Source: a virus
Length of the DNA: 22,385 nt
Reading direction: 5' to 3' (one strand)
IMG/VR virus record: IMGVR_UViG_3300047362_000403
Location: 1-22,385 of that record
Numbering within the stretch: position 1 is the stretch's first letter; each line of letters opens with the position of its first letter. This document shows, piece after piece, positions 3,348 through 19,222 of this stretch. The notes under the pieces are model-generated. The model saw only the letters and a program-made list of their open reading frames with translations, made no database searches and was not told the DNA's origin. The position numbers and the translations under genes are program-made.

Positions 3348-3356
3348 GAAAGTCCT

Positions 3357-3386: not shown

Positions 3387-3398
3387 TATAGGCAAATC

Positions 3399-5077: not shown

Positions 5078-5092
5078 AAAATAGCACATATT

Positions 5093-5101
5093 AATAAATA
5101 C
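5093..5101 (+). promoter_or_regulatory. Late-promoter-like element AATAAATAC
   Basis: AATAAATAC lies about 36 bases before the ATG at 5137 and opens the block of six small plus-strand genes. It is followed at 5126-5131 by a run of six G that serves as the ribosome binding site, 5 bases before the ATG. The same G-run leader recurs before 9638, and shorter G runs before 12350 and 14042. Confidence 0.6.
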
Positions 5102-5136
5102 ATATATAATAGACTATTTGGATCTGGGGGGATCAA

Positions 5137-5415: not shown

Positions 5416-5429
5416 AAAAGGAAACAGAA

Positions 5430-5639: not shown

Positions 5640-5842
5640 TGTGGTTAGATTATACTATAGACCAAGGACCTCACGGATTTACCGTAAGAGGTGATTGGCC
5701 TGGAGAAGTTATGGGCCTAGACCGTGAAGGTAATAAAGGCTCTAAATCAACACCGTTGTACCAACCTGGAGATGTATTCATTGTTAATGAACAAGGATGG
5801 TTAGTAAAACAGAATGACAGGGGAACTAGCGGCAGCGATTAA
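5636..5842 (+). CDS. Small PGD-F-VN-GWL protein, copy 2
   Basis: A 68-aa paralogue of the preceding protein. The two share the (Y/F)-(K/Q)-PGD-x-F-x-VN-x-x-GWL core but little outside it. A PGEVMGLDREG segment in the N-terminal half has no counterpart in copy 1. It starts with ATGATG inside the ATGA junction, and its last 29 bases overlap the start of the next gene. There is no signal peptide or membrane helix. The function is unknown. Confidence 0.55.
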   Translation: MMWLDYTIDQGPHGFTVRGDWPGEVMGLDREGNKGSKSTPLYQPGDVFIVNEQGWLVKQNDRGTSGSD

Positions 5843-6146
5843 AGATTTTGGATTTCCCATTGTTGCTGCGATGGGATTAGGTTACTTCGTTTACTATGTA
5901 TGGAAATGGGTGACCACCGAAATTAAACCAGTTGTTGGAGAGGCTAACGCTACTCTAATAGGATTGATTGATCGTATTAGAATGTTAGATAATGATCTAA
6001 TACGACTAACACAAAAACTTCAAATGGTTTTGGAGTTTAAAGAAGAGTATGAAAAAATGACAGGCAGGAAACTTGATATAGACTTAGATGATATTGAGAG
6101 TTTGAAGCAAGGGGGAAAAGATGCTAAAAGAAAGCAAGTGGAGTAA
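5814..6146 (+). CDS. Small membrane protein with coiled-coil tail, paralogue of 5137 protein
   Basis: A 110-aa protein with the same plan as the 92-aa protein at 5137: a hydrophobic helix (DFGFPIVAAMGLGYFVYYVWKW, about 11-32) followed by an amphipathic segment (LIDRIRMLDNDLIRLTQKLQ, about 49-68) and a charged C-terminus. Shared features are GFP(V/I), the G-(F/Y)-FV core and the M-x-NDL repeat in the coiled coil. The start at 5814 overlaps the previous gene by 29 bases with only a weak ribosome site. No later start is convincing because the GFP motif begins at once. The last 26 bases overlap the next small gene. It may form hetero-oligomers with the 5137 product. Confidence 0.55.
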   Translation: MTGELAAAIKDFGFPIVAAMGLGYFVYYVWKWVTTEIKPVVGEANATLIGLIDRIRMLDNDLIRLTQKLQMVLEFKEEYEKMTGRKLDIDLDDIESLKQGGKDAKRKQVE

Positions 6147-6279
6147 TTGGTGGGATAACCTACCGGAACATACAAAAGAATATTTAGAAGCACAACCAAT
6201 TTGGCATAATAAAGATATGTTAATATGCGCCAGCGTTGCGTTTGTGTTAGGATTAATTGTGGGAGGTTTCATTGGATAA
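6121..6279 (+). CDS. 52-aa single-span membrane protein
   Basis: A short gene of 53 codons with an ATG at 6121 preceded at good distance by a GGGGG run (6111-6115). The protein has a soluble N-terminus rich in Trp (SNWWDNLPEHTKEYLEAQPIWH) and a C-terminal hydrophobic helix (ICASVAFVLGLIVGGFIG, about 35-52) ending at the stop, which suggests a tail-anchored or small membrane protein. It overlaps the previous gene by 26 bases and the next by 8. I recall similar short WWDNLPEH proteins from marine phages, but no function. Confidence 0.55.
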   Translation: MLKESKWSNWWDNLPEHTKEYLEAQPIWHNKDMLICASVAFVLGLIVGGFIG

Positions 6280-6481
6280 TTGGAATGATGATCACATGTT
6301 TACACCAGCACAGAAAATTTATTTCCTATTTTGTGGTATTGTAGTAGCATTATGTATTAGTTATGTTACATACCTAGCATATGACTACAGAATTGAAAAT
6401 AAATTTGTGGAAACTATTAGTCCTAAGGATTATTGGGCAGAAGTTCCTAAATGGGAATGGAAACCTGTGTTTACTTCGTAG
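6272..6481 (+). CDS. 69-aa membrane protein with TTG start
   Basis: The frame is open from a TTG at 6257, but the better start is the TTG at 6272, which lies 5 bases after GGGAGG and overlaps the previous stop by 8 bases. The resulting protein begins MDNWNDDHMFTPAQK. It has one membrane helix (about 17-38, YFLFCGIVVALCISYVTYLAY) and a Trp-rich C-terminal part (WAEVPKWEWKPVF). It ends the plus-strand block, and its last 11 bases overlap the end of the convergent adenylate cyclase gene. The function is unknown. Confidence 0.5.
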   Translation: MDNWNDDHMFTPAQKIYFLFCGIVVALCISYVTYLAYDYRIENKFVETISPKDYWAEVPKWEWKPVFTS

Positions 6482-8519
6482 TAGCGATAAACACACCGTT
6501 CCAATCTTCTGGTAAGTCTTGCGTTTTCATATATTCGCAACGCTCTATCCACATATCGTAGTAACCATTCATTCGGCCATCAAACTGTTTCTTGAGGTAA
6601 TTACATTCACTAATTGCTTCGTCAAAATTCTGTGCTCTGTATGCCTTATGCATACCATCGTGTCTCTTTCGTGCTTTTATATCTTTTTGTTTAACATCAT
6701 CTAGCACGGTATATATTCTAATACCTATTGTTTTGCCTTTAACAGCAAGTTCATCAATTTTAAGATAAAAGAAATCATCTTTGGTTACATCATATGTGTT
6801 TTCTCCTACTAGCAATACACAACCATACTCTTTACACTTGCTTTCTATTCTAGCGGCTGTACTTACAGCATCTCCCAATACATCATATGAATGCCTCTGG
6901 GTAGATCCCATTTCACCAAGATAACCGAGACCAGTATTAATACCAGCACCCATACCCACTGGAGGGCGTCCTTCTGCTGTAATTTTATCATTAAACTTCT
7001 CCACTGCTTTTAACATGTTCAGTCCACATTGAACTGCTGACTTAGGATGGTGTGGATCATCTATAGGTGCATTGTGTATGTGCATACTTGCATCACCTAT
7101 ATACTTGATAACCATACCATCTGAATCTAATATAGGCTGTGTAATTGCATCCATATAACCATTCATTATTTTAGTTAATCCTTTTACATCATCTCCGAAT
7201 GACTCACCGAGCGGAGTGAAGCCACGCAAATCACTAAAACAAATACTAACTTCGCGCTTCATGCCTTCTTTGATTAGTGCAGGATTTTCTTGTAGCATAC
7301 GCACGACTGTTGGTGATGCGTACCCAGCAAACTGTTTCTTAATCTCTTGTTTCTCTAAGAATTCCTTAATAAAGCGGTTGAATGTTGCGTGGAACCCAAC
7401 GAGTGTTAATGCTATTAACGGCATGCTTACATCAAGCAAATATAAGTGATTTTGCCATGCGTGTAATGCACCATAAGTTAATAAACCGCCAAATATTAGG
7501 AATGAGCCTCCTATAATCCAATATGGTGTAAGTCCGACTATAAGGATAATTGTTAACGAAACAAACACTGTTGCACCAATCTCTGCTAAGAAAGCCCAGA
7601 ATGGACGCTGTATTTGATCTCCATCTAATACTGTTTGTAATGTTACTGCACCCGGCATATAATTATATTGCGGGCCTTTAGGACTGGCTATAGTACCTCC
7701 TATGCCATCCGCTGTTATACCAAGTATAACTGTTTTACCTTCCAATGACCAGAATTGATCTTCATCAGCGGCACTAACTTCTGTGAACCACTTATTCCAA
7801 CGTAACCAAATTTGTCCGTTCGGGTCTGTACTAATAATCGGATAACCAGGTACTCTTACTTTTTCTACCCCACCATCGTTTGCTTTAATTTGGTAACTAG
7901 GTGCGCCTGTTGCTACACGAATAACTTCGATAGCAATACTAGGGTAGGTATCTTCTCCAACTCTCATAATGAGTGGAACTCTGCGTACAACACCATCAAT
8001 TTCTGGTGCTGTATTAAGTACGCCTACGCCTGATGCATTTTCTCCTAATAATGGTATAGGACCCAACATACCAGGCCATTCAAACAAGTACGGAAGTGGA
8101 TCTCCTATTTTTGCAACTCCGCGTGGTACTGCATTTTTATTTGCCTGTAAACTTCCTACTTGTGCTATAATAACACCGTTATCGAATACCGCATCTGCTA
8201 AGTATTTGTCACCACCAAGTCTGTCGTCCTCGCTGAACAATATAGGCAAAACGATAATACCCGCTCCGGCTTCTCGTAACTTCCAAATAATATTTGAAAG
8301 TACTTCTCTATTCCAGGGCCATTGTCCATATTTTTCTATGGCGGCTTCGTCAATTGTAACGACTGCTATATCTTTGCTTTGCACATATTCATCTTGTTGT
8401 TGTAACAAATCGAAACTTTTTAATCTGACTGTTTGTACTACAAAATTATCGCTATAGTGAAATGAAATTACAACTAATGCCGTAATCAAGGCGACTGCCC
8501 AATGTGCAAAATACTTCAT
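6471..8519 (-). CDS. CHASE2-domain class III adenylate cyclase
   Basis: A 682-aa membrane-bound cyclase predicted to make cAMP from ATP in response to a periplasmic signal. Order: an N-terminal membrane helix (5-22), a periplasmic CHASE2 domain (about 30-305, with IAVVTIDEAAIEKYGQWPWNR at 51-71), three membrane helices (about 309-380), a linker and a catalytic domain (about 420-605). Metal-binding Asp430 (FSDLRGFT) and Asp476 (KYIGD) are present, as are adenine-selecting Lys472 and Asp546 (SYDVLGD) and Arg557. The usual Asn of VNLAAR is Ser553 (VSTAAR). The C-terminus ends DWNGVF, as in cellular CHASE2 cyclases, so the gene is full length. It starts one base after the thermonuclease stop. A membrane signalling cyclase is odd in a phage, and the nearby FecR gene is its common bacterial neighbour. 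Confidence 0.9.
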   Translation of the reverse strand: MKYFAHWAVALITALVVISFHYSDNFVVQTVRLKSFDLLQQQDEYVQSKDIAVVTIDEAAIEKYGQWPWNREVLSNIIWKLREAGAGIIVLPILFSEDDRLGGDKYLADAVFDNGVIIAQVGSLQANKNAVPRGVAKIGDPLPYLFEWPGMLGPIPLLGENASGVGVLNTAPEIDGVVRRVPLIMRVGEDTYPSIAIEVIRVATGAPSYQIKANDGGVEKVRVPGYPIISTDPNGQIWLRWNKWFTEVSAADEDQFWSLEGKTVILGITADGIGGTIASPKGPQYNYMPGAVTLQTVLDGDQIQRPFWAFLAEIGATVFVSLTIILIVGLTPYWIIGGSFLIFGGLLTYGALHAWQNHLYLLDVSMPLIALTLVGFHATFNRFIKEFLEKQEIKKQFAGYASPTVVRMLQENPALIKEGMKREVSICFSDLRGFTPLGESFGDDVKGLTKIMNGYMDAITQPILDSDGMVIKYIGDASMHIHNAPIDDPHHPKSAVQCGLNMLKAVEKFNDKITAEGRPPVGMGAGINTGLGYLGEMGSTQRHSYDVLGDAVSTAARIESKCKEYGCVLLVGENTYDVTKDDFFYLKIDELAVKGKTIGIRIYTVLDDVKQKDIKARKRHDGMHKAYRAQNFDEAISECNYLKKQFDGRMNGYYDMWIERCEYMKTQDLPEDWNGVFIATTK

Positions 8520-8520
8520 G

Positions 8521-8943
8521 TTAAACTATTATTCCCTTTTCAGTTAGTAATTGTCTGTTATCTAAATGTGCTTGTTGAATATCATCTTTACTTTGTCCAT
8601 GATATTCAACTGCGTGACCTTCGTCAATCATCATCTTGTTCAAGTTCACGCCGTCTTTCCAAACTGTACCTAGTACACGACCGAATTTTCCTTTTTCGTT
8701 ATCTAGTACCGTTGATACAATAATATCTTTACATAATCTTTCTTTTAGCCATGCTTTTGCTAAAAGTCCATATTTCTTCTCAACCTTATCTCTGGTTCTA
8801 CTTTCTGGTGTATCTATACCATACAATCTAACACGAGCTTCAAGTAGTACATCAAAACCTAAATCAAGTACACAATCAAATGTGTCACCATCTATTACCT
8901 TTACTATAGACTTTACTCTATAGTTGAATGCTGTTACTGACAT
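8521..8943 (-). CDS. Thermonuclease (staphylococcal nuclease-like, SNase family)
   Basis: A 140-aa single-domain nuclease with no signal peptide, hence probably cytoplasmic. The family motifs are complete: KVIDGDTF (15-22) with the Ca-binding Asp20, RLYGIDTPES (39-48) carrying Arg39, Asp44, Thr45 and Glu47, which match Arg35, Asp40, Thr41 and Glu43 of the staphylococcal enzyme, and GKFGRVLG with Arg89 (Arg87 equivalent). The C-terminal helix with GHAVEYHG is also typical. Similar nucleases occur in T4-like marine phages and may help degrade host DNA. A ribosome site (CGGAGAG) and an AAATAAATAC late-promoter element lie upstream. The cyclase gene follows after one base, so both are probably on one late transcript. 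Confidence 0.9.
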   Translation of the reverse strand: MSVTAFNYRVKSIVKVIDGDTFDCVLDLGFDVLLEARVRLYGIDTPESRTRDKVEKKYGLLAKAWLKERLCKDIIVSTVLDNEKGKFGRVLGTVWKDGVNLNKMMIDEGHAVEYHGQSKDDIQQAHLDNRQLLTEKGIIV

Positions 8944-8963
8944 GTTTCTCTCCGTTTCCTAAA

Positions 8964-8973
8964 GTATTTATTT
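8964..8973 (-). promoter_or_regulatory. Late-promoter-like element AAATAAATAC before the nuclease-cyclase pair
   Basis: On the minus strand AAATAAATAC ends 20 bases before the ATG at 8943. It overlaps the stop of the small gene at 8972. It matches the element before the 158-aa protein at 9679-9688 in all ten bases. Confidence 0.6.
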
Positions 8974-9160
8974 AAGAAACCTTTTTAAATTGATACCATT
9001 GAGGACAGGGAACGTCCCACGGCAAATATAACCGCGGAGGATAATGATAATACATTTTAGATACGTTATACGGAGCTCGATATTCACACACTCGAGTTAA
9101 TTGGTTATTATATATCCAACTGTGTGTAGCAAAAACCCCCGTTAATGCTATCCACAGCAT
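8972..9160 (-). CDS. 62-aa protein with N-terminal hydrophobic segment
   Basis: The frame is open upstream, but the ATG at 9160, one base after the stop of the preceding 158-aa gene and behind GGAAAGTGG, is the best start. The protein begins MLWIALTGVFATHSWIY, a hydrophobic stretch that could be a signal or anchor. The rest is rich in Tyr and Pro (MYYHYPPRLYLPW) and carries two Cys. I do not recognise it. Being coupled to the 158-aa protein, it may belong to the same virion or lysis function. Moderate confidence that it is translated. Confidence 0.45.
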   Translation of the reverse strand: MLWIALTGVFATHSWIYNNQLTRVCEYRAPYNVSKMYYHYPPRLYLPWDVPCPQWYQFKKVS

Positions 9161-9161
9161 G

Positions 9162-9638
9162 TTACCACTTTCCTTGGCTTGCACCCGCTATATATATTAG
9201 CCCACCAAGGAGCCCGGCTCCTACTATTGCTAACAATACACCAACAATCCACGCTATTATTTGTTCTTTGCGTTCTTCTGCAGCATATATTGCTTCTCGT
9301 TGTTCCTTACGCATTTGAACTTCCATGCGTACGATTTCATCCCAAGCACTCGGTCCATAATAAAGACTGATATACTGTCGCATTTCCTCACGCATTTCTT
9401 TTGCTTTTTGTTTGTGTGCCCAAATTTCCATGGCGTTGGCTTCTATGCCTCCGCCTAATGCTTTATACCATTTAGGTTTTTCTGCTTTTTGATGTGCGTA
9501 GTCTAAATCACTAAGAGCCTTGCCCCACTGTCCTAGTTGTGAGTACATACTCTGGATATCTTTTCCAGTGTTAATTGCACTTTTAATACCATTGAAGGCA
9601 GCCGTGGCTGCACCGATAGCCGTTATTGGATCTATCAT
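9162..9638 (-). CDS. Conserved T4-like marine phage protein with C-terminal membrane helix
   Basis: A 158-aa protein starting MIDPITAIGAATAAFNGIKSA. This opening, the long helical middle (KQKAKEMREEMRQY, VQMRKEQREAIYAAEERKEQ) and the C-terminal membrane helix (about 127-151, IIAWIVGVLLAIVGAGLLGG) match, from memory, a hypothetical protein conserved in T4-like cyanophages and pelagiphages. No function is known to me; it could be a virion or lysis-associated membrane protein. The leader is strong: AAATAAATAC, then a run of six G 6 bases before the ATG, nearly identical to the leader of the 5137 gene. It is one of the better taxonomic markers in the window. Confidence 0.7.
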   Translation of the reverse strand: MIDPITAIGAATAAFNGIKSAINTGKDIQSMYSQLGQWGKALSDLDYAHQKAEKPKWYKALGGGIEANAMEIWAHKQKAKEMREEMRQYISLYYGPSAWDEIVRMEVQMRKEQREAIYAAEERKEQIIAWIVGVLLAIVGAGLLGGLIYIAGASQGKW

Positions 9639-9678
9639 TTGATTCCCCCCAGTTGAATAACATTCCTGTTATCCAATG

Positions 9679-9688
9679 GTATTTATTT
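9679..9688 (-). promoter_or_regulatory. Late-promoter-like element AAATAAATAC before the 158-aa gene
   Basis: On the minus strand AAATAAATAC is 40 bases before the ATG at 9638, followed by a CTGGGGGGAATCAA leader. The short gap 9639-9719 also contains GTTATC (9668-9673) and its inverse GATAAC (9700-9705) flanking the element. No clear terminator for the curlin gene is visible here. Confidence 0.6.
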
Positions 9689-9719
9689 AGATTTTTTAAG
9701 ATAACTTAGTTTTGTGCGA

Positions 9720-10565
9720 TTATTGTTGTGTGACGGAAACTGAACACCCGCCCACTGTTACACAAGTTTGTGAAAGTGAATAACTCTTAGGTGTATTGCT
9801 GTGTTGCGTTACTGTTATGTCACTTGCATAAGTTCCGCTAGTTGCTATGTTCATACTATGCCCTGATGAACTGCCTGGATTATAGCCTTGGTCTAAATCA
9901 AATGTGCTATTGCTATTGTCTACGTCTAAGTTGATAGTATGTGTGCCGTGTCCGTTTTGTAATACATCTGCTGTAACATAATCAGCATCAATATCAACAT
10001 TCAATGTCTTACTAACGTCTGCTTGTTGTACAACGTCTACATCTGCATAATCACCATCTATTGCAATATTGCTTTCATGTCCATTGGGACCACTGCCCCA
10101 TGTTCCATTGTTACGTTGTGCTTGCCATACATTATTGTTGTCTCCTGTAATAGCAACGTTGGTTTCATGATTACCGTCTGCATAAGGATCATCATTTCCA
10201 GCATCATTTCTGTCTTGTAGGAGTGTTACTGTATTATCGTTGCCTGTTACGGTTAGATTGGCTGTGTTATCGCCACTGTTTCCGCTCAAAGAACCTTGTA
10301 ATACTTTTACAGTGTTGCCCGTTCCTGTTGAACAAACACTCATAGCATTGTTATCGTGCCATTGCTTCAGTGTTGCTGTAGTGCCATCTCCGTCAAAACA
10401 AGCGTCTGTTAAACTAGTGCCAATGGAGTTATTTTGACCATCTTGTACAACAGTCAAAGTTAGATCATCACCTATCTGATCAAGATATATATCATTAGCA
10501 AATGCACTATTGAATTTGAATAACATTAATGTCATTGCTACGGCCAGCACCCAGCGTATAGTCAT
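9720..10565 (-). CDS. Secreted curlin-like repeat protein 2
   Basis: A protein of about 281 aa with a signal peptide (MTIRWVLAVAMTLMLFKFNSAFA, cut before ND) and a mature part low in Lys/Arg and rich in Asn, Asp, Gly, Thr, Ser and Gln. The mature N-terminus NDIYLDQIGDDLTLTVVQDGQNN is a clear curlin-type Q-x-G-x-x-N repeat, and irregular repeats follow (TGNDNTVTLLQ, TGDNNNVWQAQ, DVDVVQQ, VTQHSN, SVSVTQQ). This is the composition and spacing of CsgA/CsgB amyloid subunits, though the repeats are more degenerate. It is a paralogue of the protein at 11637. The start could also be the TTG at 10574. Either way it overlaps the FecR gene by about 60 bases. It is expected to be exported through the CsgG pore encoded nearby and may form fibres; that role is inferred. 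Confidence 0.75.
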   Translation of the reverse strand: MTIRWVLAVAMTLMLFKFNSAFANDIYLDQIGDDLTLTVVQDGQNNSIGTSLTDACFDGDGTTATLKQWHDNNAMSVCSTGTGNTVKVLQGSLSGNSGDNTANLTVTGNDNTVTLLQDRNDAGNDDPYADGNHETNVAITGDNNNVWQAQRNNGTWGSGPNGHESNIAIDGDYADVDVVQQADVSKTLNVDIDADYVTADVLQNGHGTHTINLDVDNSNSTFDLDQGYNPGSSSGHSMNIATSGTYASDITVTQHSNTPKSYSLSQTCVTVGGCSVSVTQQ

Positions 10566-11637
10566 ATAACTCAAAGTCCCCTTGTTTTAATTGTATAGTG
10601 TAACTATTATCTCTAAACATCTTTAATCGTAGATAATTATTACCAGCGTTATCTTCTCTTATGAAAACCCATCTATCTCCTTGTTTATCTAAAAATATAC
10701 CAGTTGTGGCATCAAAACCGTATATATTTTTATCTTCTTGGAGTAATTCTCTATTTTGTCTAAATAATTCATCTTGGAAAAGAACTGCCAATGCAAGGTT
10801 AAGTTGGTCTAATATATCATATAACAAGTCTGCTAACAAATAATCTGTTTCATCTAATGCTGTTTTCCATATACCCTCAATAGATGATTCAAGAGAATCG
10901 TATGCTAATACATCTAACTCTAAAAAGTCAATGCCTAAAAAGTCTGCTAACTTACGCTTCTCAAGTTCTATTTCATCCTCTTCCTCATAGTAAGGATTCT
11001 TTTTACGCAATATAATTAAACCGTTAATTTGTTCTTCAGAAATATCTAATAATAAAGGAGGCGACGGAGGAGCCATACTATGTCTAGTTACTGTTGCTTG
11101 AAATGCCTGATTTAAAATAACTATACCAGCATCTGTCTCAACTTCAATTTCTCCTGTATAACACATTCCTGCTGTATTACAACTTGGTAATAGTGTAATC
11201 ATACTACCACCCATTTCATCTACAACCATGATGAAGTCAGTACCACGCACACCGATAGTTGCACTTGGTGTTCTAATTTTTACATTTTGTTTATAACGTT
11301 TGGCTATTTGCCCTGAAGCATATCTAACTGTACCTAATGATGCTTTTATACTTAGACTTCCTATATCATTTGCAGGATCGTATACAAATTCATCAATTAA
11401 TAGTCTACTATGTTCAGTTATATCAACACGGGTTTCGTCAACAAATTCTATACTCATCTTAGCACGAGCGGTAACCGCCGTGTCTTGCATAAGAACACTT
11501 AATCCGTTTGTTGCTTCTAGAGAATCTGAGCCGCGTTCTATGGCGCCGCTACCTTTAATTTTACCTATTTCACCTACTGAAGCCGCAATATTAGGACTGA
11601 ATAATACAATAGTTAAGGCAAATACAAAGCGTAACAT
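10507..11637 (-). CDS. FecR-domain periplasmic protein
   Basis: A 376-aa protein with an N-terminal signal peptide (about 1-19) and a FecR domain (about 25-185): VGEIGKIKGSGAIERG, then DTAVTARAKMSIEFVDETRVDI, SLGTVRYASGQ and the hallmark TPSATIGVRGTDF (123-135). The C-terminal half is acidic, unrecognised and probably helical. In bacteria FecR-domain proteins act in the periplasm as signal relays, and secreted FecR proteins are often encoded beside CHASE2 cyclases. Here the gene lies between two curlin-like genes: its ATG shares one base with the upstream curlin stop (TAATG), and its end overlaps the next curlin gene. It could monitor curlin export or act on the CHASE2 domain; both are inference. 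The domain call is confident. Confidence 0.85.
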   Translation of the reverse strand: MLRFVFALTIVLFSPNIAASVGEIGKIKGSGAIERGSDSLEATNGLSVLMQDTAVTARAKMSIEFVDETRVDITEHSRLLIDEFVYDPANDIGSLSIKASLGTVRYASGQIAKRYKQNVKIRTPSATIGVRGTDFIMVVDEMGGSMITLLPSCNTAGMCYTGEIEVETDAGIVILNQAFQATVTRHSMAPPSPPLLLDISEEQINGLIILRKKNPYYEEEDEIELEKRKLADFLGIDFLELDVLAYDSLESSIEGIWKTALDETDYLLADLLYDILDQLNLALAVLFQDELFRQNRELLQEDKNIYGFDATTGIFLDKQGDRWVFIREDNAGNNYLRLKMFRDNSYTIQLKQGDFELYDYTLGAGRSNDINVIQIQ

Positions 11638-12350
11638 TAATCGCTCTGTGTAATGTCTACATCAAAACTATCGCCATTAATTGTAAGGTCTACAGTATTA
11701 TCATAAATTCCAGATTGTGTTACGTCTACAGTGCCACCGCCACCGTCAATGTCTAGTGTAATACTGTGTCCACCGACGTCTCCGTCTCCGGACTGTGTGG
11801 TGGTCACTGTAACGCCTTCATCACTGTTAGCACTTGTAGTTGCTAAACTTGTGCTGTTGTTAATATCTACAGTTAGGCTTGCACTTTGACCATCAATGTC
11901 TGAGTTAATAATATTATTATCACCCGTTACTGTGAAAGATACTGTGGAGGAATCTGCATCACTTGTTTCACCGATGTCAAAGTCGAAGGTGTTATCATCA
12001 CCTGTAGTTGTAATATTTAAAGTAACTGTATCACAATTTCCTGTCGCTGTACTTGAACACAATAAATCAACTGTGTTAGTATCACCAGTAAAGGTCCAAG
12101 TACCAGTGTAAGTAGCACCTTTAATAACAGCGGCAATATCATTGTTATCACCTGTTTGTGTAATGGAAAAAGTCATGTCATCGCCAGTTAGCGTGACGTC
12201 TGTGGTTGAATCACCAACTTGGTTGTTTTGTCCATCTTGTACAATGTCCAAATCTAAACCATCGCCTATTTGATTTATATAAATGTCGTTTGCAAGAGCA
12301 TTTGTGCTTAAGAAAGCCATAGCCGCAACGAACCAAACGTAATATTTCAT
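11637..12350 (-). CDS. Secreted curlin-like repeat protein 1
   Basis: A protein of about 237 aa. The frame opens at a GTG (12365), but the ATG at 12350, 8 bases after GGGGG, gives a clean signal peptide (MKYYVWFVAAMAFLSTNALA, cut before ND). The mature start NDIYINQIGDGLDLDIVQDGQNNQVG matches the other curlin-like protein almost residue for residue. Later repeats are degenerate: TFSITQTGDNNDIA, TGDNNIINSDID, TTTQSGDGD, VDVTQSGIYDN, FDVDITQSD. The mature part is rich in Thr, Asp, Gly, Ser and Asn and almost free of Lys/Arg, as expected of a CsgA/CsgB-like amyloid subunit. It is first in a three-gene unit with FecR and curlin 2. Two late-promoter-like elements lie upstream. Confidence 0.78.
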   Translation of the reverse strand: MKYYVWFVAAMAFLSTNALANDIYINQIGDGLDLDIVQDGQNNQVGDSTTDVTLTGDDMTFSITQTGDNNDIAAVIKGATYTGTWTFTGDTNTVDLLCSSTATGNCDTVTLNITTTGDDNTFDFDIGETSDADSSTVSFTVTGDNNIINSDIDGQSASLTVDINNSTSLATTSANSDEGVTVTTTQSGDGDVGGHSITLDIDGGGGTVDVTQSGIYDNTVDLTINGDSFDVDITQSD

Positions 12351-12369
12351 CAGATAATCCCCCACATCT

Positions 12370-12378
12370 GTATTTACT
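12370..12378 (-). promoter_or_regulatory. Late-promoter-like element AGTAAATAC, proximal, for curlin operon
   Basis: On the minus strand AGTAAATAC is 20 bases before the ATG at 12350 and is followed by a GGGGG ribosome site. It is a weaker match (GTAAATA) than the distal CATAAATAC element at 12444-12452. Confidence 0.45.
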
Positions 12379-12443
12379 AATAGTTGACCGTTTTCCTAGG
12401 TTATTCTAAATAAAAAACCATAATGGTAAATATTAATACTAAA

Positions 12444-12452
12444 GTATTTATG
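12444..12452 (-). promoter_or_regulatory. Late-promoter-like element CATAAATAC, distal, for curlin operon
   Basis: On the minus strand the element CATAAATAC matches the ATAAATAC core exactly. It would give a leader of about 85 bases on the curlin-FecR-curlin transcript. It overlaps the inverted repeat AATACT-AA-AGTATT. Confidence 0.45.
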
Positions 12453-12456
12453 CTAG

Positions 12457-12474
12457 GTGTAAAAATATTTACAC
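12457..12474. promoter_or_regulatory. Perfect inverted repeat, possible operator
   Basis: GTGTAAA-AATA-TTTACAC, a perfect 7-bp inverted repeat with an AT-rich centre, lies in the 167-base region between the divergent curlin operon and Fis-like gene. An AATACT/AGTATT repeat (around 12435-12448) and ACCAT/ATGGT (around 12417-12427) are close by. Symmetric AT-rich sites with G and C at the ends are in keeping with Fis-type binding, though it is not an exact Fis consensus. Confidence 0.45.
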
Positions 12475-12504
12475 TATTGTTTTTAAAGTATAGTTTTTGA
12501 GCAA

Positions 12505-12512
12505 GATAAATA
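12505..12512 (+). promoter_or_regulatory. Late-promoter-like GATAAATA directly before the Fis-like start codon
   Basis: GATAAATA ends 5 bases before the ATG at 12518. With T4 late-promoter spacing (core at about -13 to -6), transcription would begin at or next to the A of the ATG, giving a leaderless mRNA. No Shine-Dalgarno sequence is visible before this ATG. Confidence 0.4.
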
Positions 12513-12517
12513 TTATT

Positions 12518-12748
12518 ATGGGTACTAAAGAAGAACAAATATATTTCTATAACATGTTTGATGAAATGTGGCCAAAGGATCATGTAGATGAAATTGACCT
12601 TGCCAAAGAAGTTGAAGATTTAGAGAAAAATAAAATTGAGATTGCTATGAAAGCATGTAGTATGAATCAAACAAGAGCAGCCAAAAAACTTGGTCTTGGG
12701 CGTACTAATTTAATTGCTAAACTTAAGAAATATAAAATTATTTTTTAG
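12518..12748 (+). CDS. Fis-like DNA-binding regulator (HTH_8)
   Basis: A 76-aa protein from the ATG at 12518 (the frame also opens at a TTG, 12497). The C-terminal 40 residues match the Fis/NtrC helix-turn-helix: LEKNKIEIAMKACSMNQTRAAKKLGLGRTNLIAKLKKYKI, with the A-A-x-x-L-G-(L/I)-x-R-x-x-L-x-x-K-L-K-K signature. The N-terminal part is acidic and unlike the Fis beta-hairpin. It is the only plus-strand gene in the curli block, divergent from the curlin operon and convergent with csgG (4-base overlap of ends). This suggests a local regulator of the block binding the inverted repeats before it. It could also mimic host Fis more widely. The family call is strong, the target is inferred. Confidence 0.8.
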   Translation: MGTKEEQIYFYNMFDEMWPKDHVDEIDLAKEVEDLEKNKIEIAMKACSMNQTRAAKKLGLGRTNLIAKLKKYKIIF

Positions 12749-13569
12749 TTTTCTTTGTTAGTTTTAAATTTCCAAAGTTCATTACGCTCGCCCTCTTTGA
12801 CAAGTTCTAACACACCTTGTTCGATAGCGGCTCTCACTGCATAGTTTACAGGTTCATTTATACTAAAGCCAGTTTCTGCTTCAAGTAATTTTGTTCCTAA
12901 ATCCAAAAACTTAAACACATCTGCTCCGCTTCTGGAACTAGCAATTGTTTTTTCTGTTGCTACAGTAAGCAACACTTTTCCTGTACTAACACTCACCAAT
13001 CTCATTACAACTGTTACTGTGTCAATACGATATTCTGCTTGTGATCCTAATCCAAGATAACGAGCACCTACGCCGCCTGTTGCTACATTACTATCATAAC
13101 CAACAATACCACCTTCTAATATTAAGCCAGCAAATCGCATAGGTTTTAACGGCTGTGGACCTTTAGGTAATTCTTTTTCATATACTTCTCTGGTGTTTCG
13201 TATTAGTTGGCGCTCTTTAATAAGATGATCCATACCACCGCGCTCTAATACCTCAAACCAAGTACTGTTTCCTATTTCTGAAAGTGCTTTGATTACCCAT
13301 ACTTCACTACCTTGTGTTACTGCACTAGATAGATTAGCAATATTATCTGCAGGCTTACGTTGACCTGTCATATCTTGAAATTTATAAACAGCAATGGATA
13401 TTTTCTTACCATCTAACTCTGGAAACTTTATTAACTGTTCAGCAAGCGGTGCTGGCTGTATACGAGGAGTATTCTTCGCATCATTAAAAGTTTCAATAGC
13501 CTGTTTACCGGTTGTTGCTACACACCCTGATAACATTACACTGGCGATTACCAATGGTATAATTTTCAT
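12745..13569 (-). CDS. csgG: CsgG-like curli secretion lipoprotein
   Basis: A 274-aa protein with a lipoprotein signal (LSGC, Cys16) and strong similarity along its length to CsgG, the nine-fold outer-membrane pore that exports curlins: AVYKFQDMTGQRKP (60-73), WFEVLERGGMDHLIKERQ (104-121), a match to E. coli WFIPLERQGLQNLLNERK, GLILEGGIVGYDSNVATGGVGARYLG (148-173) and INEPVNYAVRAAIEQGV (237-253). The pore-constriction region reads KPADNIANLSSAV, where E. coli has KPYPASNFSTAV: Asn is kept (Asn79), but the aromatic Tyr and Phe are replaced (Ala/Asp and Leu80) and one residue is added. It follows csgF directly (TAATG junction). Expected in the host outer membrane. It could export the two curlin-like proteins or help open the envelope. 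Confidence 0.92.
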   Translation of the reverse strand: MKIIPLVIASVMLSGCVATTGKQAIETFNDAKNTPRIQPAPLAEQLIKFPELDGKKISIAVYKFQDMTGQRKPADNIANLSSAVTQGSEVWVIKALSEIGNSTWFEVLERGGMDHLIKERQLIRNTREVYEKELPKGPQPLKPMRFAGLILEGGIVGYDSNVATGGVGARYLGLGSQAEYRIDTVTVVMRLVSVSTGKVLLTVATEKTIASSRSGADVFKFLDLGTKLLEAETGFSINEPVNYAVRAAIEQGVLELVKEGERNELWKFKTNKEN

Positions 13570-14042
13570 TAAAAGTTGAACTCCCCGGCACCTGGAATAG
13601 TAATAGTGGTGGTTGATCCATCATCTGCAACTATTTCTAACGTAATACTTTCTGTTACCGGATCTTTTGTCCAAGTAATTGTGGAACCTTCAATCTCTGC
13701 GGTTCCTGAACTAGGACAAGTTGTACCACTTGTATCAGTACATGTCGCAAACATACTATCCACCATCTGTTTAGATAGTGTAGCGTATATTCTTGATTCA
13801 ATATTTTTAATAAACTTGTTAAGTGTAGAATTTTCTAACTCGCGTTCCAAGCGTTCCGCTTCTGCACGAGCTTCATCTTTAATGTCCTGCCTTCTATTAA
13901 ACTGTAGTTGTTCTACACTTAATACATGACTACTGTAACCGTTGCCATAATGGAAGGCAGGACTCTTAAAGGAATGTGTTAGTTCACTAGCGTATGAACT
14001 ACCTCCTATCATTGTTAATAAAACTAAAAACATTAGGCGCAT
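13569..14042 (-). CDS. csgF: CsgF-like curli assembly factor
   Basis: A 157-aa protein with a signal peptide (about 1-18, ending SSYAS). The mature N-terminus ELTHSFKSPAFHYGNGYSS matches the CsgF segment (T-x-x-F-x-(N/S)-P-x-F-G) that inserts into the CsgG channel. Next comes a charged helical linker (EARAEAERLERELENS), a LNKFIKNIESRIYATL segment similar to the CsgF middle, and a C-terminal beta region (ITWTKDPVTESITLEIVADDGSTTTITIPG) resembling the E. coli tail. It is about 20 residues longer than E. coli CsgF and has two extra Cys (CTDTSGTTC). It is first in a csgF-csgG pair, the order of many phage and bacterial versions being variable. GGGGG ribosome site and an ACTAAATAC element upstream. 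Confident. Confidence 0.85.
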   Translation of the reverse strand: MRLMFLVLLTMIGGSSYASELTHSFKSPAFHYGNGYSSHVLSVEQLQFNRRQDIKDEARAEAERLERELENSTLNKFIKNIESRIYATLSKQMVDSMFATCTDTSGTTCPSSGTAEIEGSTITWTKDPVTESITLEIVADDGSTTTITIPGAGEFNF

Positions 14043-14075
14043 AATTTAATTCCCCCGATAATTGTGCATTATAAT

Positions 14076-14084
14076 GTATTTAGT
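14076..14084 (-). promoter_or_regulatory. Late-promoter-like element ACTAAATAC for csgF-csgG
   Basis: On the minus strand ACTAAATAC lies about 33 bases before the ATG at 14042, followed by GGGGG at 14052-14056. It sits in the 50-base gap after tctA. It is a slightly degenerate copy (CTAAATA) of the ATAAATA core. Confidence 0.45.
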
Positions 14085-14092
14085 TAATCTTA

Positions 14093-15658
14093 TTATGCAT
14101 AGTCCATTGTACGAGATTTATTAAAGAATCCATACAAAAGAAGTAGGATTCCAATTACTATACATATAGCCAACGCTGGGTGTTGAATAAACGTAGGATT
14201 ATTGAATATATAGTTTGTGCTTAATAAACTAAAGTCTCCATTTAGTGCCGCTGATACTGACTGTATATCATCATAAAAGAACACATTAGATAACTGTAAG
14301 TAGGATCCTTCAATGCGTGGGAATAAAATATAAGCCATAAGTAATGCAGGTCTACTAAACTTGCCATACTTACATACCATACCAATGATACCGAACACCA
14401 CTAGCATAGTTAAATCTTCCCATACACTTGCATAGAATCTACTTGCAAGAACAGCCCAGATTGTTAACGCCAACATTGGGGGAATCCAATAATATGGGTT
14501 GATATAAACAATCTTACAACACCATCTCGCAAATACTAACATTAGAACACCTGCAAAGAATGTTCCTAACATATAACCACCCAGTAAACTATTCATAAAC
14601 TGCGTATCATCCATGATGAATGGACTACCAACTTCAAAACCTATATAAAGCCATAAGGCCATAAGTAATGCAAACACTTTGCCGCCTGGAATACCAAACA
14701 TAATAGTAGGCAATAAGCCTCCCATCTTGCCAGCGTTGTTAGCACCTTCAGGACCGATAACACCTTTGATGTTTCCAGTACCAAACTTGACTTTTTCTTT
14801 TTTGTTAAGTGCAACTGTGGCACTATAACTTGTCCAGTCACCAATACCGCCACCAGTACCAGGAAGAATGCCTACAACAAAACCAATACACCCACCCATA
14901 AAGGCTAGGTACTTGTGTTTCCAGACAGCAAGAATGCCGTCCCAAGTTTGTTTATTGTGTTCCTTACGTGAAATTCTTGCAACTTCATACTTGGTTGTCA
15001 ACGCTTCCCATAATTCTGGAAGAGCAAACAAACCTGCCGCAACAATAACAACTGGTACACCATCTTCTAAATAGGCCCAGCCGCCTGTATTTCTGACTTC
15101 GCCCATCATGCCATAACCAATGCTACCAAAGAACAAACCTATACCAATAGCACAAAGGCTACGAGCTGTGTTCTTAGTAGTAACAACTGATATTAGACAG
15201 AATGCTACAATAATAAGTCCTGCTATTTCTGGAACACCAACATAATCCGCTATTGCTCCATAAAAAGGAATAATAGCCATACCTAATGCACCAAATAATA
15301 AACCATTAATCGTGCTTACTGTAATTGCAGAACTAAGAGCGTAACTTGCCTTACCCTGCTTTGCCAGTGGAAATCCATCTACCATTGTACTTGCCGCTCC
15401 TGATGCTCCTGGTATTCCCAAGAGTACACTCGCAAAACTATCACCAATAGTACATGATACCATTGTTGCAATAGAAAACATTACAAACAGATAATTACCG
15501 CCCGCAAAATCAAAGCTCTGTACAATAACAAAGAGCATAATGATTGCTTTACCAGGGCCTGCACTAGGAATTAACCCAATTAGGCCCCCATAAAGAATAC
15601 CGGCAGTGAGCATTAACGCCCACTGCACGGCAACTGGATATGTAAGAATCCACTCCAT
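14093..15658 (-). CDS. tctA: TctA-family large permease of a tripartite tricarboxylate transporter
   Basis: A 521-aa polytopic membrane protein (about 11-12 hydrophobic segments), of normal length for TctA (about 500). Family signatures are clear: GGLIGLIPSAGPGKAI near the N-terminus, GDSFASVLLGIPGASGAAST, and the central VGILPGTGGGIGDWTSYSATV followed by FGTGNIKGVIGPEGANNAGKMGGLLPTIMFGIPGG. TctA forms the inner-membrane channel that works with the periplasmic TctC receptor and the small TctB subunit to import carboxylates using ion gradients. Here tctC lies 2 bases upstream and no tctB is present. Complete and without visible damage, so probably functional. Phage carriage suggests steering host carbon uptake; the substrate cannot be read. 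Confidence 0.9.
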   Translation of the reverse strand: MEWILTYPVAVQWALMLTAGILYGGLIGLIPSAGPGKAIIMLFVIVQSFDFAGGNYLFVMFSIATMVSCTIGDSFASVLLGIPGASGAASTMVDGFPLAKQGKASYALSSAITVSTINGLLFGALGMAIIPFYGAIADYVGVPEIAGLIIVAFCLISVVTTKNTARSLCAIGIGLFFGSIGYGMMGEVRNTGGWAYLEDGVPVVIVAAGLFALPELWEALTTKYEVARISRKEHNKQTWDGILAVWKHKYLAFMGGCIGFVVGILPGTGGGIGDWTSYSATVALNKKEKVKFGTGNIKGVIGPEGANNAGKMGGLLPTIMFGIPGGKVFALLMALWLYIGFEVGSPFIMDDTQFMNSLLGGYMLGTFFAGVLMLVFARWCCKIVYINPYYWIPPMLALTIWAVLASRFYASVWEDLTMLVVFGIIGMVCKYGKFSRPALLMAYILFPRIEGSYLQLSNVFFYDDIQSVSAALNGDFSLLSTNYIFNNPTFIQHPALAICIVIGILLLLYGFFNKSRTMDYA

Positions 15659-15660
15659 TT

Positions 15661-16761
15661 TTACTTGAGTAGTTCTTCTTTAACGAACGCATCCTGATAC
15701 TTAAACAAGTCGTTAGCAAGTACAACTAGAGTTTCAAGATTTTGTCTGTTAATTAGCGAGAACAAGTAGTCACTGTGTGCAATAACTTCATCACCTGATA
15801 ACCAAGGGAAAGCACCTAGTTTCTTATCCAAACGAGCCATTACTTCTGGATCATTTAACATTTCTGCCACTGCGGCATCAATGTCTGCTTTGAAAGGAGA
15901 GTTAGGAGCAATCCAAATTGTCTTTTGGAAACCATCTCTGTAACCTTGGAATGTTACATATGCTTCGTAAACTGGACCGCTTGGCTTTACACCGTATTCT
16001 GCTTCATAAACTTCTGGGAAGGACTGTGCGCCTTCTGGTGCATTTGGATCACCGTAAACAGAACCTTTACCGTCTACAATACCGTGTGCAAACCATACAC
16101 GACTTTTTCCTGACTCATACTCTTTAGCATAACCCATTAAAGAAGTCTGTGGGGTATCACGTGTTGCGTCTAACTGTCCTCTACGGAATGCTTGGCGCTT
16201 CTCGCCGCCTGAGTTAAATCCTGGGATAAAACGTAGTTTTTCGTTTGTACATGCTAGGAATGATTCAACTGTTGCATTTTTCTCTGGACCACAAATCATT
16301 AGTCCTACTGCAACGATGTCAGCCGCAAAGCCTGTACCGCCTGTTGCTGGAAACTTAACTACGTCATTTCTCCAGTCAACGTCTGAGTTAATTGAAACCC
16401 AAATGTTAGTATTCATCACAACTACTGGATCGTAGTTACGATAATCAAAACCACCTACGTCTTCTAGTAGGAAGCCTTCACCATTACCGCCGTGTGCAAT
16501 CATTAGTGTTGTTGGGCGATCCTGATATGAACCAGCATAGTCTTTAAGTGACTTCTTGCCTCGTTGACCTGGAAGGTAACGTGGAACAATGTTGTGTCCA
16601 TATTTTTCGAGCTTACCATTGAGCTCTTTCATTACATTGTCACCCCAGAATGCCGTACCTCCTTTACCTGGACCGTTCGGAAACTGAAGTTCGAAAGTTT
16701 CTGCTACTGCTGAAGTAGCCATCATCGTGGCGACTGCCACAATCGATAGTAGTTTTTTCAT
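15661..16761 (-). CDS. tctC: TctC-like periplasmic solute-binding protein of the TTT system
   Basis: A 366-aa protein with a Sec signal peptide (MKKLLSIVAVATMMATSAVA, cut before ET). It has a mature domain of the Bug/TctC kind: LQFPNGPGKGGTAFWGDNV near the start (the P-x-G-x-G-x-D-type opening loop in variant form), a PATGGTGFAADIVAVGLM segment and RGQLDATRDTPQTS in place of the usual G-E-(V/L)-D loop. It is somewhat longer than typical TctC proteins (about 300-330 aa), so it belongs to a divergent subgroup. It is transcribed just ahead of tctA. ACGGAG ribosome site; a 156-base leader with two hairpins lies upstream. It would capture a carboxylate-type ligand in the host periplasm; ligand unknown. 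Confidence 0.8.
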   Translation of the reverse strand: MKKLLSIVAVATMMATSAVAETFELQFPNGPGKGGTAFWGDNVMKELNGKLEKYGHNIVPRYLPGQRGKKSLKDYAGSYQDRPTTLMIAHGGNGEGFLLEDVGGFDYRNYDPVVVMNTNIWVSINSDVDWRNDVVKFPATGGTGFAADIVAVGLMICGPEKNATVESFLACTNEKLRFIPGFNSGGEKRQAFRRGQLDATRDTPQTSLMGYAKEYESGKSRVWFAHGIVDGKGSVYGDPNAPEGAQSFPEVYEAEYGVKPSGPVYEAYVTFQGYRDGFQKTIWIAPNSPFKADIDAAVAEMLNDPEVMARLDKKLGAFPWLSGDEVIAHSDYLFSLINRQNLETLVVLANDLFKYQDAFVKEELLK

Positions 16762-16843
16762 AAGTTTTCTCCGTTTGTTTACTCATAAAACTTTTGGGTG
16801 CATAATTGCACTGATTTTATATTGAAAATGATTACAATACATG

Positions 16844-16867
16844 AACCGAGCGACTCCGCTCCAGGTT
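16844..16867 (-). promoter_or_regulatory. Stem-loop in the tctC leader
   Basis: GAGCG-ACTC-CGCTC, extended by AACC/GGTT across a 2-base bulge, gives a GC-rich stem-loop in an AT-rich leader about 85 bases before the tctC start. No T-run follows on either strand, so it is not a standard intrinsic terminator. It could be a leader structure or protein site. Confidence 0.4.
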
Positions 16868-16888
16868 ATTATTGTTATTGGGAAAGAT

Positions 16889-16905
16889 AGCAAAAATCTT
16901 TTGCT
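16889..16905 (-). promoter_or_regulatory. Perfect hairpin at the predicted 5' end of the tctCA transcript
   Basis: AGCAAAA-GAT-TTTTGCT on the minus strand, a perfect 7-bp stem with a 3-base loop. If the GATAAATA at 16911-16918 is the late promoter, transcription would begin at about 16905, i.e. at the first base of this hairpin. A 5'-terminal hairpin can stabilise mRNA. It could instead be a weak terminator of the methyltransferase gene. Confidence 0.4.
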
Positions 16906-16910
16906 AAATC

Positions 16911-16918
16911 TATTTATC
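16911..16918 (-). promoter_or_regulatory. Late-promoter-like GATAAATA for tctC-tctA
   Basis: On the minus strand GATAAATA begins within the TAG stop of the methyltransferase gene and lies about 150 bases before the tctC ATG. No closer copy of the motif is found in this leader. The 156 bases 16762-16917 contain no gene that I can support. Confidence 0.45.
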
Positions 16919-17589
16919 TATTTTGTTTTCCAGACAAAATAAATTCGGTTTGCGTCTTCTCTTAAAGCCATTACTTCACAATTAAGAGCATTAGCACTAT
17001 TTAGGATAAACGTATAATCGTAGTTAAAAAAGTCAATATATTTTGCTTCCTTAGGATCATGCGTTTCACCTGGGTTAACACGAAAGTACAGTAACCCGCC
17101 AGTAGTAGTCAGACTAACTACCTTTTCTAGTTCAGCAAATACTTTTTCTGCTGATCCGAAATTAATACTACCCAATGATATAACAACATCAAATTGTTTT
17201 CCTGGGTTGTAATCTATAATAGAACTTTTAACATCAGCTCTATCATTAAAGGCATCTACACCAATTAAGTTATGTATTTTTCCTTTAAATTCATTGTAGC
17301 CACAACCAACGTCTAACACACTGCGTGGTTTCATGGCATTAATCTCATCAACTATAGCAAGACCGCTATACTTATACTTCTTAGTTTTTGGCTGCCAAAT
17401 TTTAGTAAAATAATACTCTAAGATATTTTGATCAATCTCATTGACAATATTAATTACACTCTTACCAGCAGTATTAATATTAATATTCCATATACCAGCA
17501 ATCGCTTGGTTTAGTGCATTTGAATCTCTCATTAAATGCGGTGAGTTATGGAACATTTGTTGTAACTGATTAAAAACTTTAGTATTCAT
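16918..17589 (-). CDS. Class I SAM-dependent methyltransferase
   Basis: A 223-aa protein with a clear Rossmann methyltransferase core: motif I VLDVGCGYNEFKG (about 96-108), the post-I acidic strand end LIGVDAF, then FDVVISLGSINFGS as motif IV and GGLLYFRVNPGETHDP as the later strand. It has no signal peptide or membrane segment. The first 85 residues are helical and unrecognised. It is the last gene of the minus-strand run from 21964, 12 bases after the 34-aa gene, with an AGAGGAAG ribosome site. The substrate is unknown; the neighbours suggest modification of a metabolite, glycan or protein. The fold is confident. Confidence 0.75.
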   Translation of the reverse strand: MNTKVFNQLQQMFHNSPHLMRDSNALNQAIAGIWNININTAGKSVINIVNEIDQNILEYYFTKIWQPKTKKYKYSGLAIVDEINAMKPRSVLDVGCGYNEFKGKIHNLIGVDAFNDRADVKSSIIDYNPGKQFDVVISLGSINFGSAEKVFAELEKVVSLTTTGGLLYFRVNPGETHDPKEAKYIDFFNYDYTFILNSANALNCEVMALREDANRIYFVWKTK

Positions 17590-17601
17590 TTTGTTCTTCC
17601 T

Positions 17602-17706
17602 CTAATCGTAAATATAAGGGTCTTCTTCTTGTAATTTTTTGATCTTCTTCTTTAGAGCTCGCTTGTATTTCCATTCAGCAATTTTGTTTTTAATCCAACT
17701 AATCAT
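17602..17706 (-). CDS. 34-aa basic protein of marine phages
   Basis: A 35-codon gene from the ATG at 17706, overlapping the carbamoyltransferase stop by 8 bases. The peptide MISWIKNKIAEWKYKRALKK continues with a Lys-rich helix and ends DPYIYD. It is a basic amphipathic helix throughout. I recall very similar short proteins (KNKxAEWKYxxxxKK...DPxIY) from T4-like cyanophages and pelagiphages. No function is known. Gene-like features are the overlap, the position inside a tight operon and the ribosome site for the next gene just after the stop. Confidence 0.6.
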   Translation of the reverse strand: MISWIKNKIAEWKYKRALKKKIKKLQEEDPYIYD

Positions 17707-19222
17707 GTGTACACACCTTTATGTTATATAATTTCTGCCATTCAATGGCATCTATAATTGTATCTACCATTGGCTTACCTTTAATATTTAAAGAGGTGTT
17801 TAATAACATTGGACATTTTGTCTTATTATACCATACTTCTAGTAATTTGTAAAGACTTTTATGCTCTTTTTTATTAACTGTTTGCACTCTACTTGTTCCA
17901 TCATAATGAACTATTGCTGGAAAGTCAAGTGGAAATTTACATTTGCTTGTGAATTGCATATACGGTCCAACTGGTCCGTCAAAATAGTCTTGTGCAAACT
18001 CCTCCATAATAACTGGAGCAAATGGGCGGAATTCCTGTCTACGCTTCACAGCGTTGACTCTGTCCTTTACGTCGCCACCTCTTGGATCTGCTAACAGGCT
18101 ACGGTTACCTAAGGCCCGTGGTCCGAACTCCGCCCTGCCATTGGCTACACCTGCTATGCCTGATTCTTCTAATTCCTTAATTAAACTGTTAACTGGATAC
18201 TTTCCTTCAATGTTATGTCCTAAGTAAGGTCCAGTCCATTCTATATGTTTTTGTGTATGTGCTAATACTGCTCCTAAACTACTTCCGGCATCACCAGGGT
18301 TAGGCATAATCCATACATTATCATAATATTCCTTAGCAATACTGTTGGCTACACAATTTAAAGCACAGCCTCCCATAATTACTAAATTTTTACTTCCAAC
18401 AAGACTGAGTGTATATTGTACTAGTTTCCTAAATATAAATTCATATACCGCTTGGGTTCCTGCCGCAATATCAGCATAGTCCTGTACAGTATTAAGTTCT
18501 CTTGCCCACCACAAACATCCGCGATGTAAATTGTGTTTGAAATTAACATTTATTTCGTATGGTTGTAACGGGTGAAAGAAATCCTCATAAATTTTATTAA
18601 AATATTTTTTAGGATCTCCCAAAGCAGCCATACCCATTAAGATATATTCATCTTCATTAGGTTTTAATCCAATACGTTGTGTCATAGCACTGTACCACAA
18701 ACCTAAACTATGAGGATAGCCTTGCGAAAATTTCTTGATAAGTTTTTCACCTGAACCTTCCCATATAGTAAGTGTTTCAAATTCTCCAATACTATCTACT
18801 ACCAATATAGCCGCGTCTGTATACGGACTTGTATAGTAACCGGCGGCCGCATGGCATTTATGATGCCTATGACTATGGAATCTGAATGTATCTAAAATAT
18901 CTAAACAATCATCTTCTGGTGGTAATATACTAACATCAATTCCAAACTTTAACAGATGTTGTGTTGGACCGCCCTTAAACAAGGCAGTTTTATATTGTTT
19001 TGCTTTTAGTTGGCGTAAACGTTTTAACCAATTTGTTTCATACCAATGTATTTCTCTTGGATCACCATATTCTCTTGCTTGGTCTATTAATTGTTGATTT
19101 AAATTTTTATCATTTTTTATTCCGCTACTACGTTCAGCATGGGCCGCGAATTTAATCTCATTGTCTTGAATAACTGTTAAACTAGCATCATGCGAACCAG
19201 CAGTAATACCCCATTTAATCAT
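17699..19222 (-). CDS. Carbamoyltransferase (NodU/CmcH/TobZ family)
   Basis: A 507-aa enzyme expected to use carbamoyl phosphate and ATP to carbamoylate a hydroxyl group of a sugar or metabolite. The N-terminal Kae1-like domain shows GITAGSHDASLTV (5-17), the metal and catalytic His motif HHKCHAAAGYYTS (120-132) and GGCALNC (284-290). The C-terminal YrdC-like domain has GRAEFGPRALGNRSLLADP (362-380) and RRQEFRPFAPVI. It is somewhat shorter than bacterial NodU (about 550-570), mainly at the C-terminus. It overlaps the oxygenase gene before it (ATGA) and the 34-aa gene after it. Carbamoyltransferases are known in cyanophages. The acceptor here is unknown but could be a surface glycan. Confidence 0.9.
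   Translation of the reverse strand: MIKWGITAGSHDASLTVIQDNEIKFAAHAERSSGIKNDKNLNQQLIDQAREYGDPREIHWYETNWLKRLRQLKAKQYKTALFKGGPTQHLLKFGIDVSILPPEDDCLDILDTFRFHSHRHHKCHAAAGYYTSPYTDAAILVVDSIGEFETLTIWEGSGEKLIKKFSQGYPHSLGLWYSAMTQRIGLKPNEDEYILMGMAALGDPKKYFNKIYEDFFHPLQPYEINVNFKHNLHRGCLWWARELNTVQDYADIAAGTQAVYEFIFRKLVQYTLSLVGSKNLVIMGGCALNCVANSIAKEYYDNVWIMPNPGDAGSSLGAVLAHTQKHIEWTGPYLGHNIEGKYPVNSLIKELEESGIAGVANGRAEFGPRALGNRSLLADPRGGDVKDRVNAVKRRQEFRPFAPVIMEEFAQDYFDGPVGPYMQFTSKCKFPLDFPAIVHYDGTSRVQTVNKKEHKSLYKLLEVWYNKTKCPMLLNTSLNIKGKPMVDTIIDAIEWQKLYNIKVCTHD

Follow-up and report, generated by a model that had tools for sequence, protein, structure and literature searches.

The question raised by this locus is whether a phage can encode a working importer of the tripartite tricarboxylate transporter (TTT) family from two genes alone, tctC for the binding protein and tctA for the permease, when the small membrane subunit TctB is missing. 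The sequence analysed, called the window below, is 22,385 bases long and comes from IMG/VR, where it is recorded as a virus; it is a fragment, as are most of the contigs with which it was compared.

The tctC–tctA pair and its phage setting

ORF calls placed tctC and then tctA on the minus strand, co-directional, both complete and separated by a gap of 2 bases, in agreement with an earlier note made from the sequence alone (Table 1). The methyltransferase-like gene before tctC holds the same position, at 45–54 % identity, in L001–L006, L008–L011, L016 and L017; the window copy has no Pfam match and the L001 copy a weak match to Methyltransf_23.

Table 1. Features of the tctC–tctA locus and its surroundings (window coordinates)
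Feature	Position	Strand	Description and basis
tctC	15661..16761	-	366 aa, TTT solute-binding protein, predicted secreted/periplasmic, virus-specific subfamily; ORF, AlphaFold and relatives
tctA	14093..15658	-	521 aa, TTT permease with complete PF01970 domain, no attached TctB domain; Pfam, AlphaFold and tree
Ribosome-binding site of tctC	16769..16772	-	GGAG; read from sequence
T4-like late-promoter motif	16911..16918	-	GATAAATA, form NATAAATA; 150 bp upstream of tctC
Methyltransferase-like gene	16918..17589	-	upstream neighbour of tctC; constant in window-type relatives
csgF	13569..14042	-	curli pore partner (outer membrane), directly downstream of tctA, same direction; Pfam CsgF 8.9e-12
csgG	12745..13569	-	outer-membrane curli secretion pore, downstream; Pfam CsgG 1.7e-48
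Curli-type cassette	6471–14042		CsgF, CsgG, two CsgA-like repeat proteins, FecR, CHASE2-adenylate cyclase; Pfam
NATAAATA sites	3360, 3385, 5093, 8972, 9687, 12452, 16918, 21999		upstream of many transcription units, AMG-like ones included

The form NATAAATA is the one that we take to be typical of T4-like late promoters of marine myophages. Of the nine sites of this form in the window, eight closely precede an ORF start and are correctly oriented, compared with 11 % expected (P=2e-7), and the GATAAATA motif was found again at the same place in L001–L004. An Rfam search for RNAs found none.

Curli cassettes like the one downstream of the pair are known from pelagimyophages and pelagipodophages (PMC7029224, PMC9599517). 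In the window the two CsgA-like proteins were named from their repeats and position and have no Pfam match. The cyclase shares 68 % identity with its counterpart in OM43 phage Melnitz and 46 % with the one in Pelagibacter phage HTVC008M. A csgF gene also lies slightly downstream of tctCA in L001, L002, L003 and L009. With the cassette, the cyclase and T4-type late promoters all present, the window has features of a pelagimyophage-like T4-type phage. The T4 major capsid protein gp23 is encoded on several contigs of more distant members of the clade and was not found on the closest contigs, which are themselves fragments; a T4-type DNA polymerase is encoded on the contig of L007, whose TctA is 93 % identical, and a baseplate wedge on that of L014. 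These genes bear out the earlier assignment of the pair to a phage.

Much of the window (2–19222) is an island of small-molecule- or glycan-modifying genes, with a NodU-like carbamoyltransferase, methyltransferases and glycosyltransferases, and a related 60 kb contig encodes a tryptophan halogenase (L182:6450–7967).

Permease, binding protein and the missing TctB

TctA matched PF01970 with E 6.5e-77 and 259.4 bits (cut-off 28.9), residues 15–440 covering model positions 2–422 of 423. This identifies it as a full-length member of the TTT permease family, for which ion-coupled carboxylate transport is predicted. Its AlphaFold model (pLDDT 86.7) is an all-helical membrane protein. The model had no significant match in the PDB and the TctA profile matched no PDB chain, so no mechanistic comparison could be drawn. 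Among isolated phages, TctA matches of 24–27 % identity occurred in seven records, of which four are fecal 'Bacteriophage sp.', and TctC had no match; identity of the phage TctA to cellular TctAs is about 26–31 %.

TctC has a signal-peptide-like N-terminus and is, as had been noted earlier, long and divergent: no informative match was found in Pfam, PHROGs, NCBIfam or PDB sequences, and even at E 10 there was no Pfam match, PF03401 (the Bug family) included. Some TctCs of the sister cellular group match PF03401 and others do not. Identification therefore relied on the predicted fold. The 11 best PDB structural matches of the AlphaFold model (pLDDT 90) are all TTT binding proteins, among them TphC, Bug27, TBP, Rpa4515, BugD, MatC and Bpro_3516, with Z scores of 18.4–20.4 against 13 for the next fold. 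As modelled, TctC is thus a TTT binding protein of the TctC/Bug fold. Relatives with 49–92 % identity were found in 17 viral loci with window-type pairs, in varied gene contexts. A scan of species genomes with TctC gave no relative and a second scan was therefore made with TctA; a TctC profile search of 321 Gammaproteobacteria, 367 Alphaproteobacteria and 237 Omnitrophota genomes gave no other close TctC.

Although tctC and tctA lie side by side as in a complete tripartite TTT system, the small 4-TM subunit TctB of such a system (PF07331) was found neither in the window nor in 22 related viral records. In a second search, of 23 viral records of up to 204 kb, it was missing from all but one, a 182 kb phage in which tctB immediately precedes a second tctA that belongs to the canonical clade. 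This exception indicates that phages can carry TctB and that the search can detect it; the tctB belongs to an unrelated second pair, and it was the only instance among the 23 records of the tctB elsewhere in the genome that the earlier note had named as evidence against its claim. In this gp23-bearing phage (G035), the canonical tctB–tctA (L253:4986–6919) is present besides the TctB-less pair; genes for a TonB-receptor-like protein and a 4-TM protein come after it.

Neighbouring genes gave the same picture. A TctB-like neighbour, defined as a co-directional ORF of 110–260 aa with at least 3 TM segments (Kyte–Doolittle estimates, as for all TM counts here), was present at one of 82 viral TctA loci, where it is probably spurious, and at 72 of 76 cellular TctA loci, 71 with an adjacent and one with a fused TctB (Fisher P=7e-39, a value that overstates the case since related contigs are not independent). 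Two kinds of candidate were rejected: a secreted protein of 128–141 aa encoded ahead of tctC in the L025 group lacks TM segments and resembles a small outer-membrane protein, and small multi-TM ORFs near L010, L028, L061, L080, L087 and L090 either are antisense or overlapping or show no conservation. Because TctB sequences are poorly conserved (PMC5812351), the search could have overlooked a TctB that is very divergent or encoded far away. The absence across the viral clade favours action without TctB. As judged from sequence and predicted fold, the pair is a TctB-less, virus-specific TTT variant that is TTT-like as an importer and not a complete tripartite system.

Ancestry, conservation and movement of the pair

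The viral TctAs formed one clade with 100/100 support and a stem of 1.67 changes per site, as in an earlier tree, monophyletic apart from two nested loci of cellular appearance. Its sister (support 99/94 to 99/96) comprised cellular long TctAs together with those of Virgibacillus and Lentibacillus; the trees were midpoint-rooted for drawing, and the long branches call for caution. Virgibacillus and Lentibacillus have the order tctC–tctA–tctB, with a separate, Pfam-recognized PF07331 TctB after tctA. The long TctAs, from Alpha- and Gammaproteobacteria including SAR11-like ones (L226–L245, L267–L271), are the nearest cellular TctAs and share with the phages the order tctC–tctA and the TctC subfamily (HMM 80–136 bits). 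They differ in length, at 640–750 aa with 12–16 predicted TM segments compared with about 475–522 aa and 6–11 in phages; all 20 proteobacterial loci with a sister-type TctC had tctC adjoining a TctA of 642–749 aa with 12–16 TM segments. Their C-terminal extension is probably a TctB domain, mainly on the basis of position and some four extra TM segments: it matched PF07331 weakly in some (E 5e-4 in L226; about 25–26 bits, below the cut-off, in SAR11-order copies) and not in others. The most probable history is loss of TctB on the viral stem, as a domain or as a gene following tctA, which is the simplest reading because outgroup and sister both have TctB. The earlier claim of a missing TctB thus stands, whereas its placing of the gap 'between' tctC and tctA does not, TctB being encoded after tctA or probably fused to it in the nearest cellular relatives.

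The earlier note had also looked to SAR11 or other marine bacteria for a donor. A recent one did not emerge, the viral TctA stem of ~1.6 changes per site having no close cellular source; SAR11-order genomes encode canonical tctBA and tctC with long TctA, none of them close to the phage clade. In a pattern-based scan of 84,980 species genomes only four TctAs reached 39 % identity. The 106 kb contig of L100 also encodes gp23, which marks it as a phage contig placed in a bacterial bin, and L103 has phage-type neighbours. The neighbours of L101 (Omnitrophota bin) and L102 (Marine bacterium B5-7) look cellular, yet both loci nest in the viral clade, which suggests phage-to-bacterium transfer or misbinning. 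On the bacterial contig of L102 (5995–9835), tctA–tctC lies beside homologues of phage neighbours, namely a gene like L010:10084–10752 and a methyltransferase, an arrangement that looks like phage-to-bacterium transfer.

A profile search of viral contigs gave 385 TctA-encoding stretches, of which the best 80 were examined. Two gene orders occur, tctC–tctA and tctA–tctC; the genes are adjacent in most viral loci and mostly touch or overlap. Intact pairs are present in dozens of contigs. Decay in related phages, the other sign against a functional pair named in the earlier note, is rare, with frameshifts splitting one tctA (L032) and one tctC (L090). Between the window and its close relatives L001, L002 and L005, dN/dS for tctC and tctA was 0.08–0.17. 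This shows that the pair is under purifying selection, which the earlier note had thought likely. In the same comparisons dS of tctA and tctC was 0.42–0.76, against 0.9 to saturation for csgG, csgF, fecR and the cyclase, methyltransferase and carbamoyltransferase genes. The lower dS indicates that the pair probably moved between phages as a cassette after its surroundings had diverged. Within the tctC–tctA group the TctC and TctA trees conflict, and in L012:8835–12143 a porin gene is followed by two tctC copies that differ deeply from each other and then by a single tctA; the binding protein therefore appears to have been swapped.

Possible function and alternative explanations

The explanation that we consider rather probable is that tctC–tctA is a two-part TTT variant which forms its own lineage in marine T4-like myophages, has lost TctB and feeds the cell late in infection. 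It builds on the intact genes, the TctC fold, the clade-wide lack of a TctB-like neighbour, the tree, purifying selection and cassette mobility, and from these it proposes a time of expression, transport, a substrate class and function without TctB. The ancestor would have been a cellular TTT with tctC followed by tctA, and with TctB fused to the TctA C-terminus or encoded just after it; TctB would then have been dropped on the viral stem. In the periplasm, the exported TctC would capture a small carboxylate or sulfo-carboxylate, which TctA would then import with the help of the host ion gradient, a mode proposed for the TTT family (PMC5812351). Import may supply the infected cell with carbon and energy late in infection. 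Genes neighbouring the sister group (ComA, PrpF and isocitrate/isopropylmalate-type dehydrogenases) hint at hydroxy-acids or sulfolactate as substrates; the ComA, phosphosulfolactate synthase, adjoins some SAR11-order members. Outer-membrane genes also lie near the viral pair, with CsgG/CsgF after tctCA in the window, a porin before tctC in L012 and a small outer-membrane-like protein in the L025 group, so that the phage may supply steps across both membranes. The small subunit is required in TRAP transporters (PMC5812351), which argues against easy loss of TctB. A broader version, in which TctC and TctA are an ancient, self-sufficient secondary transporter dependent on its binding protein, spread as a cassette, exchanging binding proteins and passed to bacteria more than once, is given a little under even chances.

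Two alternatives retain a third component. The phage TctA and TctC might recruit host TctB in trans and form a tripartite complex in the infected cell. Cellular systems as a rule have a third subunit, and in genomes of a SAR11-like order, which may not be the phages' host, TctB was found in 85 of 197 (~43 %) and TctA in 87 of 197, tctB usually lying right before the host tctA. The order was presumed to be SAR11 from one genome's match to a single 16S probe. However, more than half of these genomes have no TctB, the TctA partners of host TctB belong to other clades, from which the phage TctA is far removed (again ~26–31 % identity to cellular TctAs), and loss across so many phage lineages would be easier if TctB were dispensable; recruitment of the host subunit is therefore unlikely. 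No more credible is the replacement of TctB by another small membrane protein, for which DUF6552 (72–98 aa, 2–3 TM segments) is the best candidate. In 11 loci it is encoded no more than about 1 kb downstream of tctC, and in seven of these it directly follows tctC (in the tctA–tctC group, e.g. L065:3013–3231), and PF20189 (DUF6552) is present in 19 of 40 TctCA records, including the window-type L002, L005, L009, L010 and L017, compared with only two of 50,697 phage records. Yet about half of the TctCA records, several of them longer than 80 kb, have no DUF6552, the window is among the sequences in which it was not found, and it is often far from tctCA where present; and two viruses that have it, Pelagibacter phage Mosig and Marine virus AG-345-D19, yielded no TctA.

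The pair might otherwise serve a purpose unrelated to feeding, TctC scavenging or sensing a ligand or TctA altering the envelope, with effects on superinfection exclusion or lysis timing. Its position next to envelope genes (the curli pore CsgG/CsgF) and an extra amino-acid-type binding protein beside it in the L049 group are compatible with such roles, and expression from a late promoter does not demand nutrition. Transport is nevertheless a better fit to a permease core and binding protein that are kept together under purifying selection and adjacent in either order, and a non-feeding role is judged improbable. Capture of host DNA in viral contigs, or recent acquisition from bacteria, is a very improbable origin of the pair. 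IMG/VR contigs can include host DNA and the cellular-looking L101 and L102 encode such pairs, but these two nest within the viral clade, contigs of the clade encode T4 gp23, DNA polymerase or baseplate genes (gp23 even on the 106 kb 'bacterial' contig of L100), and the pattern scan of the species genomes yielded just the four TctAs that reach 39 % identity.

The closest known systems include TctCBA (TC 2.A.80; Salmonella TctI), in which a PF01970 permease and a periplasmic binding protein of the TctC fold are encoded together, as in the phage; the phage pair differs in having no TctB, a TctC outside PF03401, a viral location and a separate clade. The phage gene order corresponds to the order C–A–(B) of those TTT systems whose tctB follows tctA, for example SlcHFG for sulfolactate (PMC5812351), which has TctB and is likened here by description only. 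Stand-alone archaeal TctAs have been proposed to work without TctB (PMC5812351, PMC5898192), and in these TctC, kept in the phage, is missing as well. On marine viral contigs, tctA has been listed for SUP05 viruses as 'protein domain hit only' (PMC4164917) and 'tricarboxylate transport' near norB/nirK in an OMZ myovirus (PMC8115048); neither report was found to mention the pair, its lack of TctB or a clade of viral TctAs, and among the open-access papers searched none describing any of these was found. The role of TctB is still unknown after decades (PMC5812351), and a clade with TctA and TctC but no TctB would allow it to be tested against relatives with a fused or separate TctB. If the two-part reading is correct, a whole importer, beyond a lone binding protein, has been kept as a virus-specific lineage in marine phages, which would suggest that phage yield is limited by the supply of carboxylates.

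As a separate observation, a phage-encoded amino-acid-type ABC binding protein (SBP_bac_3) lies beside tctA at L049:1176–2225, and also in L051 and L052.
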